Source of the DNA: Polynucleobacter sp. Latsch14-2
GTDB taxonomy: Bacteria; Pseudomonadota; Gammaproteobacteria; Burkholderiales; Burkholderiaceae
Reading direction: 5' to 3'
Assembly: GCF_018881925.1 (NCBI RefSeq)
Contig: NZ_JACVPL010000001.1
Location: 310,001-374,000 of the forward strand
DNA length: 64,000 nt
The translations under genes were made by a program, and so were the position numbers. Positions 55,001 through 60,313 of this stretch are shown here, in pieces. Positions within the stretch are counted from its first letter, which is position 1. Each line of letters begins with the position of its first letter. The notes below the pieces were generated by a model that was not told the DNA's origin, ran no database searches, and saw nothing but the letters and a program-made list of their open reading frames with translations.

Positions 55001-57892
55001 TTACTTGAGGCGCTCTAATTGTGCAATAAGCTTCTCGTGATTTTGTTCGAACCCTGCCAATCGTTGTTTTTCCTGTGCTACAACTTCTTCTGGAGCGCGA
55101 GCAACAAAGCTTTCGTTAGATAATTTGCCGCGGGCCTTGGTGATTTCATTGGCTAAACGCTCAATTTCTTTGCTAAGTCTAATTCTTTCTGCCACTACAT
55201 CAACTTCAATTTTGAGTAAGAGTTTAAGGTCGCCAACTAACGCAATTGGTGCGTCTGGAGCATCTTTTTCTAAAGCGGATTCATCGTTGTAGATTTTGAC
55301 TTCAGACAGTTTGGCTAAAGCGGTGAGGTAGGGGGTGGCTTGCCTGAGGAATGCTTCAGGACCAGTAATCCAAAGCGGTACTTTATTTCCAGGGGGGACT
55401 TGCATCTCCCCACGCAGGTTTCTACAGGCATCCACAATGGCTTTAATTTGAGCAACCCATGCTTCACTCTGTTCATCTAGCTTGTCTGGCTGGGAAACTG
55501 GGTAGGGCTGCAGGGCAATAGTTTGCTTTTCTTGCTTGGCAAGCTCTTTTCCTGATATTGGTGCAACGGTTTGCCAGAGCGTTTCAGTAATGAAGGGAAT
55601 GAGTGGGTGAGCCATCCGCAAGATGGTTTCCAATACGCGCAACAAAGTACGACGTGTTGCACGTTGCTGGGCTGGAGTACCAGTCTGTAGCTGAACTTTA
55701 GCAAGCTCAAGGTACCAATCGCAATATTCATCCCAAACAAATTGATAGATGCTCGAGGCAATGTTATCAAAGCGATAGTTTTCAAAACCTTTGGCTACAT
55801 CTGCCTCAGTTCTTTGAAGTAGGGAAACAATCCAACGATCAGCAGGGGAAAAATCTAAGTAGCCATCTGCGCCACATTGATTATCGCAAGGGGCAAAACC
55901 GTTTTCTTCATCACCGCCAGGACAGTTCATGAGAACGAAGCGGGTGGCATTCCAGAGTTTGTTACAGAAGTTGCGATAACCTTCACAGCGTTTCTGGTCA
56001 AAGTTGATATTGCGACCTAGCGAAGCAAGCGAAGCAAATGTGAAGCGGAGAGCATCAGTGCCAAATGCAGGAATACCTTCCGGGAATTCCTTTTTAGTTT
56101 TCTTACCAATGCTTTCAGCTTGTTTTGGGTTCATCAAGCCAGAAGTTCTTTTATTGACTAGTTCTTCAATCTTGATGCCGTCAATCAGGTCAATCGGGTC
56201 CAAGGTGTTGCCTTTGGACTTGCTCATCTTCTGGCCTTCAGAGTCTCGTACTAAACCATGAACGTATACGGTATGAAATGGCACCTTGCCGGTGAAGTGG
56301 CAGGTCATCATTACCATGCGCGCCACCCAGAAGAAGATGATGTCAAAGCCAGTGACCAATACAGACGAGGGTAAAAAGTGCTTGAGTTCGGGCGTCTGTT
56401 CTGGCCAGCCCAACGAGCTAAATGGTACGAGTGCTGAGCTAAACCAAGTATCGAGTACATCAGGGTCACGAATTAGGGCGCCACTATAGCCAGCAGCTGT
56501 AGCCTTAGTTTTTGCTTCCTCTTCAGATCGCGCCACAAAGATTTGACCATCTTCTGCATACCAAGCAGGGATTTGATGGCCCCACCATAGTTGGCGTGAG
56601 ATACACCAGTCTTGAATATTCTCGAGCCATTGAGTGTAGGTGGTAATCCAGTTTTCAGGGACAAGTTTGATATCGCCTTTGGTTACTGCGTCTAATGCAG
56701 CGCCGGCGATTGATGAGCCTGGCTGATACTGATTGTCAGGACTTGGTTTAGACATAGCTACAAACCACTGATCTGTGAGCATTGGCTCAATGATTGTCTG
56801 TGTGCGGTCACCGCGCGGCACCATCAATTTATGAGGCTGTACTTTTTCCAATAGACCAGCAGCATCCAAATCGGCAACAATTTGTTTGCGGGCTGCAAAA
56901 CGCTCCATGCCTTGGTACGTAGACGGGGCATTCTCATTAATCTTTGCATCCAGGGTCAAAATATTAATGAGTGGTAATTGGTGGCGTTGACCTACTGCAT
57001 AGTCATTGAAGTCATGCGCGGGAGTCACTTTTACAACCCCAGTACCAAAGTTCAAATCAACATAGTCATCTGCGATGATTAGAATCTCGCGATTGCAGAG
57101 TGGCAAGTGCACCGACTTGCCAATCAGGTGCTTATAGCGTTCATCTTCAGGATTGACCATCACGGCTACGTCACCCAATAAGGTTTCTGGGCGAGTAGTT
57201 GCAACTGTTAAATGCCCAGAGCCATCCGCGAGTGGATAGCGGATGTGCCACATCGAACCATCTTCTTCCTCACTAACAACCTCGAGATCAGAAACTGCAG
57301 TACCTAGAACAGGATCCCAGTTCACTAAACGTTTGCCACGGTAAATGAGCCCCTGCTCATGGAGGCGCACAAACACCTCAACCACGGCCTTGGACATTTT
57401 GCTATCCATCGTGAAATATTCGCGGCCCCAGTCAATGGAGGCGCCTAGACGACGAATTTGGCGAGTAATGGTCGAACCAGAGCTCTCCTTCCACTCCCAA
57501 ACCTTTTCTAGGAATTTTTGGCGCCCTAAATCGTGGCGAGAAACTTTTTGTGCATCGAGTTGGCGTTCAACGACAATTTGAGTGGCAATGCCAGCATGAT
57601 CTGTGCCGGGGACCCACAAGGTATTTTTACCAGACATACGGGCATGACGGACCAGACCATCCATGATTGTTTGGTTAAAGGCGTGACCCATATGCAGGGT
57701 GCCAGTCACATTGGGTGGCGGTAGCTGAACACTAAAGTCAGCCTTGCCTTCATCAAGGGAGGCTGTGGCAATGCCTCTATTTTCCCATTCAGGCACCCAA
57801 TGGGCTTCTATGGGGGCGGGTTCATAGGATTTAGCAAGCTGGTCCGCGGGACTGCTTGCTGGAGAATTGGGGGTATTCGAAGCATTTGGCAT
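55001..57892 (-). CDS. valS: Valyl-tRNA synthetase
   Basis: Charges tRNA-Val. The 963-residue class I enzyme has HMGH at residues 67-70 after PPPNVTGTL, the KMSKSKGN loop, an editing domain between them and a C-terminal coiled coil ([16 protein letters not shown] region) that contacts tRNA. The ATG at 57892 is chosen over a TTG at 57901. A Ser/Pro/Asn-rich head of about 20 residues precedes the domain. Divergent from uvrD with only 24 bases between starts, sharing one palindromic -10 block. Confidence 0.98.
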
Positions 57893-57900
57893 AAGAGGCA

Positions 57901-57910
57901 AATTATAATT
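57901..57910. promoter_or_regulatory. Palindromic -10 block shared by valS and uvrD
   Basis: AATTATAATT is its own reverse complement and reads TATAAT on the plus strand (57904-57909) and on the minus strand (57907-57902). uvrD starts seven bases after its hexamer, and valS nine bases after its own, so both mRNAs would have no leader or two to three bases only. Neither strand shows a good -35. Confidence 0.5.
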
Positions 57911-57916
57911 GGCACG

Positions 57917-60313
57917 ATGTACTCAGACTTGCTCGCGAACCTCAACCCAGAACAGCGCGAGGCAGTGACCCTCCCGCCCGTAAATGAAAATGGCCAGGCC
58001 CAATCAGCCTTAATTTTGGCTGGGGCAGGGAGCGGCAAAACCCGCGTCCTCACTACCCGTATAGCCTGGCTGATCCAAACTGGACAAGTTTCGCCGATTG
58101 GGGTCTTGGCGGTAACCTTTACAAATAAGGCTGCCAAAGAGATGATGTTGCGCCTTAGCGCCATGTTGCCTATTAATACTCGAGGTATGTGGATTGGCAC
58201 TTTTCATGGCCTTTGTAACCGTTTATTGCGCGCACATCACAAAGAAGCCGGTTTACCCTCCACATTTCAGATATTGGATACCCAAGATCAGCTATCAGCC
58301 ATCAAGCGCCTTTTGAAGGGTTTGAAGGTCGATGATGAGAAGTATCCACCCAAGCAATTGCAGTATTTCATTGCGCATGCCAAAGAACGTGGTCTGCGCG
58401 CCCGTGAGTTGGATTCGGGGGATGACTTTCAGGCCAAGATGGCTCAACTCTACGAAGCCTACGATGCACAGTGTCAACGCGAGGGTGTAGTGGATTTTGC
58501 AGAGCTCTTATTACGTAGTTATGAGCTGCTTAAGCATAGTGAAGCCATTCGAACGCATTACCAAGAGCGTTTTCGCCACATTTTGATCGATGAGTTTCAA
58601 GATACCAATGCACTTCAATATGCCTGGTTAAAGCTACTTTCTGGGCATGACGCCATCAAGTCCAATGTGAGTGGTGCCGGCACTAGTGCCGTCTTTGCTG
58701 TTGGCGATGACGATCAGAGTATTTATGCCTTCCGTGGCGCTGATGTAGAGAACATGCGTCTGTATGAAAAACAATTTCATCCGATGATGGTAAAGCTTGA
58801 ACAGAACTATCGATCGCATGGCCATATCTTAGATACGGCCAATCATCTGATTGCAAACAATACCGAGAGGTTGGGCAAGAATTTACGCACTGATGCTGGT
58901 CATGGCGAACCAGTGCGGATTTACGATGCCGCTAGTGATCACGCTGAAGCAGCTTGGCTGGTTGATGAAATCAAGGCCTTAGTTAATAGCGGCATTAAGC
59001 GTACCGAAATTGCTTTGCTATACAGGAGTAACGCGCAGTCACGCATCATTGAGCATGCCTTGTTCTCGGCAGCCATCCCTTATCGCGTTTATGGTGGTTT
59101 ACGATTCTTTGAGCGCGCAGAAATTAAACATGCGCTGGCGTATCTACGCCTTTTAGAAAATCCAAATGACGATACTTCTTTCTCGCGAGTTGTGAACTTT
59201 CCAACTCGAGGTATTGGAGCGCGTTCGATTGAGGCTCTACAAGATGAGGCAAGGGCTCAGCAATGCTCTTTATATTTAGCGGCCACCACTTTAACTGGAA
59301 AAGCCGGTACATCACTGAGCGGCTTTGTACGTTTGGTTGATCACATGCGTGAGGCAACACGTCACAATACTTTGCCTGAAACTGTCGAGTTTGTGATTCA
59401 AAATAGCGGCTTAATTCAGCATTATTTGACGGAGCGTGAAGGTCAAGATCGCGTAGAGAACTTGCAGGAACTTGTCAATGCTGCAACCGCTTTTATTGCT
59501 GAAGAGGGTTACGGTCAGGATGCTGCTGCAGCGATGTTGCCTGGTGAAAATGAGCCTGGCGTGGTGGAGGTTTCACCTTTGGCTGCCTTTTTATCGCATG
59601 CCTCTTTAGAGGCGGGCGACAATCAAGCTCAAGCCGGACAAGATGCCGTGCAGTTAATGACGGTGCATTCGGCTAAAGGGCTCGAATTTACTTCCGTCTT
59701 CATTACTGGTTTGGAGGAAGGCTTATTCCCGCATGAAAATAGTGTGAATGAACTGAATGGCCTAGAGGAAGAGCGACGCTTAATGTATGTTGCGATTACG
59801 AGAGCAAAAGAGCGCTTGTACCTCTCTCATACACAATCACGCATGCTCCATGGGCAGGTGCGCTACAACATGCCATCCCGATTCTTAGAAGAGTTGCCAG
59901 CCGACTCGCTCAAATGGCTTACTCCAAAAGCGAAGGATGCTCGCTGGGGTGGTGGTAGAAGTTCTGGATCAACTTGGCAAGATGGCTACACTCGCCAACG
60001 TGAGTATGAATCTAACGACTTCTTTGATTCTGGTAACGAGCGGCAGCAAGTACGACATCAAACTTATGGCCAGGCGCCTACTAGAGCGGGGCGAGTGGGC
60101 TCTGCTTCAACAGTGGTGCAAAGGCTTGCTTCACCCCCACGCGGTAACTATCCATTCACAATTGGGCAAAATGTATTTCATACAAAGTTTGGCGAGGGAC
60201 GCGTTACCGGTCTAGAAGGCAATGATACTGATGCGCGCGCCCAAGTTAGCTTTAAGCGACATGGTGTGAAATGGTTGCAACTGAGTATTGCTAAGTTGAG
60301 CGCGATTGACTGA
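57917..60313 (+). CDS. uvrD: UvrD/PcrA-type DNA helicase
   Basis: Superfamily 1A 3'-5' helicase in nucleotide-excision and mismatch repair and in clearing stalled RNA polymerase. The 798-residue product has the P-loop GAGSGKT at residues 36-42, motif [23 protein letters not shown], the QNYRS block, and motif [14 protein letters not shown], with a C-terminal Tudor-like segment ([16 protein letters not shown]) known in UvrD/PcrA to bind RNA polymerase. The linker near 690-760 is Arg/Gly/Ser-rich. The ATG at 57917 is right; the frame is open from 57800 only because it runs antisense to valS. Convergent with the BPSS1780-type gene. Confidence 0.94.

Follow-up and report, generated by a model that had tools for sequence, protein, structure and literature searches.

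The present analysis mainly concerns the short gap between the divergent genes valS and uvrD of Polynucleobacter sp. Latsch14-2, which lies in a window of 64,000 nucleotides (nt), that is, the whole stretch of DNA that was analysed (assembly GCF_018881925.1, contig NZ_JACVPL010000001.1, positions 310,001 to 374,000). The gap contains a palindrome, AATTATAATT, that probably represents one bidirectional promoter of the sigma-70 type serving both genes, a reading to which we assign a probability of about 0.82.

The valS/uvrD locus

The genes and signals at the locus are given below in window positions. The usual step from a -10 element to the transcription start was taken as 7-8 nt.

55001..57892, minus strand: valS, valine--tRNA ligase, 963 amino acids; ATG at 57892-57890 (the open reading frame list has an in-frame TTG start at 57901)
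57917..60313, plus strand: uvrD, DNA helicase II, 798 amino acids; ATG at 57917-57919 (the open reading frame list opens the frame at 57800)
57893..57916, no strand: inter-start gap, 24 nt; 0-16 changes per column, aligned ungapped on the core, versus 43 on average for fourfold sites
57901..57910, no strand: palindrome AATTATAATT, with the 8-base-pair (bp) core ATTATAAT at 57902-57909; from the sequence and its conservation in the genus
57904..57909, plus strand: predicted uvrD -10 element, TATAAT, from consensus and spacing; 7 nt upstream of the ATG
57902..57907, minus strand: predicted valS -10 element, TATAAT on the minus strand, from consensus and spacing; 9 nt upstream of the ATG
57916..57917, plus strand: predicted start of the uvrD messenger RNA (mRNA), leader of 0-1 nt, from the usual 7-8 nt step
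57892..57895, minus strand: predicted start of the valS mRNA, leader of 0-3 nt
57879..57888, plus strand: expected place of a uvrD -35 element, in valS codons 2-5; none found, the commonest best hexamers being GAGGCA and GAAGCA (spacer 19)
57923..57932, minus strand: expected place of a valS -35 element, in uvrD codons 3-6; none found, the commonest best hexamer being GTCTGA (spacer 15)

The valS product matched the family models NF004349 and TIGR00422 above cut-off. For the UvrD product, the best families were TIGR01075 uvrD (940.5 bits) and PRK11773 (912.2 bits), both under the curated cut-offs of 1144.45 and 965, and the nearest named relatives (L064-L066, L068) are Polynucleobacter proteins that are 97-88% identical.

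AATTATAATT is a perfect inverted repeat, the symmetry of which ends at the 10-mer in the window (A at 57900 versus G at 57911). Its core, ATTATAAT, holds TATAAT on each strand, with the four bases TATA common to both hexamers, and a -10 element can be read on both strands in the sequence and in the genus census described below. The first-pass annotation of this DNA had described a perfect TATAAT on both strands within a 24-base gap between divergent valS and uvrD, 7 and 9 bases from the start codons, with transcription starts about 20 bases apart. The sequence at 57901-57910 and the gap at 57893-57916 agree with this description, the distances being 7 nt for uvrD and 9 nt for valS, and a 7-nt step from each -10 element predicts starts separated by 21 bp. 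Counted from the whole 10-mer, the ATG is 8 nt away for valS and 6 nt away for uvrD.

Conservation, rarity and origin of the probable shared -10 element

The genus set consisted of 186 genomes, and the locus was obtained for 184 of them; no valS match was obtained for G099 and G199, and L252 (G079), which had been picked by its palindrome and contains no valS start, was set aside, leaving 183 readable loci. Exactly one ATTATAAT lies between valS and uvrD in all 183. The full 10-mer is present in 176 of these loci and the variant AAATTATAATG, in which one outer base is lost, in 7, while AATTATAATT occurs anywhere in the genome in 183 of the 186. uvrD adjoins valS in divergent orientation at 182 of the 183 loci, the exception (L243) sitting at a contig end. 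Loss of the palindrome from close relatives in which the gene pair is retained, which the first-pass annotation had named as evidence against its proposal, was sought and seen in 0/183 loci for the 8-bp core, as against 7/183 with an outer base of the 10-mer lost.

On a uvrD-based tree of 180 genus loci (L228, L243 and L256, in which uvrD is absent, short or interrupted, were left out), the nine columns 57901-57909 have 0 parsimony changes, of which the zeros at 57902-57909 restate the census, the core being the alignment anchor. The census itself is unanchored, and a locus lacking the core would have scored "none". The remaining gap columns show 2-16 changes, compared with a mean of 43.4 and a minimum of 19 in 45 fourfold uvrD columns on the same tree.

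The palindrome is also rare. AATTATAATT has its sole copy in the window at this gap (shuffled sequences: mean 0.12, at least one copy in 11 of 100) and two copies in the 2.34-Mb genome, compared with five of the reversed control. Four copies of ATTATAAT versus 42 of its reversed control were counted in the source genome, and 197 versus 1507 over 61 genus genomes (median 3 versus 20 per genome). A single copy is present in 18 of these 61, and because all 18 are in the census, that lone copy is the one between valS and uvrD. Judged by the open frames listed, the three other copies in the source genome all lie outside short intervals between divergent genes. One of these three (L324, near 1501; G000:C7:2695) lies inside a long repetitive open frame rich in Gly, Thr and Ser, which resembles a protein of the surface or autotransporter type. 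TATAAT itself was found 145 times in the source genome (G000), versus 1077 times for its reversed control, both strands counted, and is thus about seven-fold rarer; by these counts, the perfect -10 sequence is avoided across the genome.

Given the genus-wide conservation and the rarity of the core elsewhere, both halves of the palindrome are under strong selection, and a one-way promoter would not require both to be conserved. Whether selection maintains such symmetry, or the -10 sequence simply brings it about, can be answered clearly for one case: both halves remain unchanged in 183/183 genomes, one per species, and the 8-mer is scarce elsewhere in the 61 sampled ones.

Outside the genus, 72 of 74 family genomes had a valS match, and 33 loci were compared, with all of 23 genera represented; uvrD is divergent from valS within a stretch of about 1 kb in 21 of the 33. 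At each of the 21, two distinct boxes, ATTATA towards valS and TATAAT towards uvrD, are separated by 16-240 bp, and none has a fused -10 element. The distance from TATAAT to the aligned uvrD start is 22-87 nt in 20 of the 21, whereas at L307 it is 405 nt and the assignment is doubtful. In 41 of 57 relatives from the family and the order, a one-way ATTATA precedes the aligned valS by no more than 200 nt. Among 24 relatives from the order, none of which was found with uvrD beside valS, L059 alone has ATTATAAT; L310 and L313 (2/21) have it at the valS box, yet with a separate uvrD -10 element 55-56 bp away. These three unshared copies indicate that the symmetry can arise without sharing. Both L310 and L313 belong to a single further genus of the family and come from genomes reduced to about 1.2 Mb. 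Among the matches listed for 24 plasmid records, valS was matched over only about one-third of the query, which is uninformative.

Sharing of the -10 element was thus seen in Polynucleobacter only, and, since the pair is kept outside the genus without it, the shared element is a genus trait. The symmetric shared -10 element of the first-pass annotation is strongly supported by conservation, although within the genus only. With two separate boxes present at all 21 loci of other genera, the shared one seems to have arisen by fusion in the ancestor of the genus. The valS box reads ATTATAA and the uvrD box TTATAAT at 12 of these loci, and with TTATAA common to both, a deletion between them would leave ATTATAAT. 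One genus member, L037, has a 35-nt stretch between the valS ATG and the fused box, close in length to the leaders of several members of the family (among them L294, L295 and L302), and may represent an early stage.

Leaders, -35 elements and alternative readings

For the comparison of leaders, the valS start was taken as the in-frame ATG nearest the core and the uvrD start as whichever ATG or GTG came closest to the start of the alignment while keeping a distance of 5 nt or more from the core; Shine-Dalgarno sequences were sought as five 4-mers in a 14-nt stretch. uvrD starts 7 nt past the core at 150 of 181 loci, none of which has a Shine-Dalgarno 4-mer, and 21-25 nt past the core at 31 loci, 17 of which have such a 4-mer. 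The distance from the core to the valS start is 8-9 nt at 170 of 183 loci, slightly longer than usual, and a Shine-Dalgarno 4-mer is absent from all 183. The two marks of leaderless genes, a -10 element about 12 bp before the start codon and the lack of a Shine-Dalgarno sequence, are accordingly found here, the second base of the -10 element preceding the ATG by 12 nt for uvrD and by 14 nt for valS. In the source genome, TATAAT-N5-8-ATG occurs 21 times, compared with 4 times for TATAAT-N5-8-GTA, the same-letter control. As the ATGs are 7 and 9 nt past the -10 elements and lack Shine-Dalgarno matches, the valS and uvrD mRNAs probably have no leader or almost none, a feature that the first-pass annotation had left unmentioned. 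The 31 loci with a uvrD leader form one clade (support 0.985), the joining of which to a leaderless clade has a support of 0.693, so that the ancestral uvrD message may have been either leadered or leaderless.

Similar spacing occurs upstream of uvrD in other genera. Among the 80 best uvrD matches listed, TATAAT-N6-ATG was present in 26 and TATAAT-N7-ATG in 7, including L064-L068; the remaining 28 of those 33, all with valS absent from the 1.5-kb flank, belong to Collimonas, Herminiimonas, Massilia, Duganella, Janthinobacterium and others (L070-L075, L077, L079, L082, L083, L086, L087, L090, L091, L093, L094, L096, L104, L106, L109-L111, L114, L116, L122, L126, L127, L135). With TATAAT 6-7 nt before the ATG at these 28 loci, leaderless-type uvrD is not peculiar to Polynucleobacter and, on this spacing, may be widespread.

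The -35 elements were scored at spacers 15-19 with matrix frequencies, and as the loci are related, the counts are not independent. Mean scores were -1.2 for uvrD (183 loci) and -1.0 for valS (182 loci), both below the 0.38 of random positions in the same loci (n=1826); the best match was 4/6, at 14 loci for uvrD and 4 for valS, and none was higher. A promoter scan of 57600-58250 found no promoter-like pair at the gap, its lone pair (58118-58146, plus strand; shuffled sequences 0.8) lying inside uvrD in the same sense. Since neither the scoring nor the scan found a partner, the promoter would be, by its sequence, of a -10-only type. The first-pass annotation had put both -35 regions inside the coding sequence of the opposite gene: the places do fall there, but nothing like TTGACA is present in them, and two -35 boxes inside the opposite genes were rejected because of scores below those of random positions. 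The valS and uvrD promoters of the family are likewise poor in -35 sequences, with matches of no more than 3/6 in 20 of 21 for each gene, which leaves a loss of -35 elements through fusion unsupported. According to the accessible part of PMC12825309, AT-rich sequence near -18 can compensate for an absent -35 element; such compensation is not evident at the valS/uvrD promoter.

Several points weigh against a shared bidirectional promoter. The start sites of both mRNAs are sequence predictions. On the valS side, the ATG is 9 nt from the -10 element and the usual start position is without a purine, the only purine 4 to 10 nt past the element being the A of the ATG, at 10 nt. For uvrD, a nearer in-frame TTG or GTG lies 0-4 nt past the core at 19 loci and was not counted as a start. 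Larger counts, 52 and 85, were obtained for the reversed controls of these leaderless patterns, as TATAAT is scarce overall, so that only the comparison of ATG with GTA is fair. A TG extended -10 element is absent in both directions from the window sequence and, together with the lack of a -35 match in either direction, this leaves the strength of the promoter unexplained. The anchoring of the alignment on the core also belongs here, as does the predicted separation of 21 bp, which is not among the 18, 10 and 23 bp preferred in Escherichia coli according to the accessible part of PMC12825309.

Three other explanations have to be compared with the bidirectional promoter. The palindrome could be the operator of a dimeric regulator of both genes, with the promoters elsewhere or merely coincident with it. 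Operators are often perfect inverted repeats placed between divergent genes, and the 10-bp repeat fits that form; in addition, synonymous variation in the main clade is low at uvrD codons 13-24, which might point to another control site. The conserved core, however, consists of exactly the two -10 hexamers, each with a counterpart in other genera, the symmetry in the window stops at the 10-mer, and the 8-mer is scarce in the same way as TATAAT itself, which fits a polymerase signal. LexA was the sole regulator searched for. Its E. coli-type consensus is CTGT-N8-ACAG, and no such SOS box with two or fewer mismatches lies in 57893-57916, which makes the SOS test of the uvrD promoter negative; the nearest of the LexA-like matches listed is at 57839-57854 (2 mismatches), and the window total is 154 versus 246 by chance. 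An operator therefore appears quite improbable. The variation at uvrD codons 13-24 (57953-57988), which sit about 45-80 bp upstream of the valS -10 element, is 0.316 versus 0.49 in amino-acid-matched later codons of the 150-genome main clade, and the reduction is absent from 32 other genus loci and 21 family loci. As proof of an upstream valS element within uvrD, low synonymous variation was rejected, codons 2-12 being low in all three groups.

Transcription could also start here in one direction only, the other gene using a promoter inside its neighbour and carrying a leader. The missing -35 match on both sides and the rather distant valS ATG would be in line with this; on the other hand, both palindrome halves are invariant, the lone scan pair would serve neither start, and Shine-Dalgarno 4-mers are lacking from all valS loci and from the uvrD loci of the 7-nt class, and we regard such an arrangement as improbable. 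That chance and common ancestry without selection have preserved the palindrome, all 183 loci belonging to one genus, is in effect refuted by the parsimony counts on the uvrD tree, where fourfold sites average 43 changes and never fall below 19 while the nine columns have none; this explanation is extremely improbable.

Proposed mechanism and comparison with known promoters

In the bidirectional promoter proposed here, RNA polymerase would bind one stretch of -10 DNA facing either way, given that ATTATAAT reads TATAAT on both strands, one orientation producing the uvrD mRNA and the other the valS mRNA. The predicted starts would be about 21 bp apart and at, or no more than about 3 nt from, the start codons, yielding two messages that are leaderless or nearly so. 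By geometry, and as the first-pass annotation had proposed, one bound polymerase should exclude the opposed one, as both orientations need the same melted bases; whether this exclusion limits output depends on occupancy. In the accessible part of PMC12825309, basal transcription at five tested E. coli bidirectional promoters was too low for competition. In the ancestor of Polynucleobacter, two separate -10 boxes would have fused, most simply by deletion between their TATA cores, and the fused arrangement would have been held unchanged since. Two-way activity, start sites, leaderless translation, exclusion and deletion are what we infer. More generally, the locus suggests a simple route to symmetric promoters: because TATA is self-complementary, any two -10 boxes placed back to back have a short direct repeat in common, and a deletion there would join them with neither damaged.

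A stronger version, in which the fusion was a single deletion that kept both boxes perfect, after which transcription of valS and of uvrD has been mutually exclusive on each chromosome copy and has yielded leaderless messages, with the either-or choice itself under selection, seems rather unlikely. If true, the either-or promoter would be a fixed coupling of protein-synthesis capacity to the supply of a repair helicase. Nothing in the present results shows such coupling as a selected trait, and compaction in a small genome would explain the arrangement no less well than regulation.

Within reach of a literature search that did not extend to most subscription journals, nothing was found on the valS/uvrD pair or on bacterial leaderless bidirectional promoters. 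RNA sequencing of P. asymbioticus gave a +1.29 fold change for UvrD after radiation treatment (PMC7522526); the phrase "transcription start" is absent from the accessible part of that paper's main text.

Three known systems are comparable to the valS/uvrD promoter. The valS/uvrD promoters of other genera have the same gene pair, orientation and two -10 sequences as the Polynucleobacter arrangement, but their boxes are separate and leaders are present. The leaderless (TA-led) genes described in the accessible part of PMC3160421 (BMC Genomics 2011), the main text of which does not mention Polynucleobacter in that part, likewise have a -10 element about 12 bp before the start codon and no Shine-Dalgarno match, whereas at valS/uvrD two such starts diverge from one box. 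The third system comprises the symmetric -10 promoters of Warman, Grainger and colleagues (PMC12825309, PMC10268837), a class that the first-pass annotation had cited as known in bacteria and that is indeed established. Bidirectional promoters are reported to be common; in the accessible part of PMC10268837 they are defined by start sites 7-25 bp apart and favour gaps between divergent genes on Salmonella chromosomes. The valS/uvrD box shares with this class one -10 element readable on both strands between divergent genes and a predicted separation, 21 bp, within the 7-25 bp definition. It differs in that both hexamers are perfect TATAAT with four bases in common, which gives the 21-bp spacing, in that leaderless or nearly leaderless messages would arise on both sides, and in that it is fixed in the genus and would serve two housekeeping genes. 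The best reading is, therefore, that the valS/uvrD promoter would represent the known symmetric -10 kind in an unusually compact, genus-fixed form.

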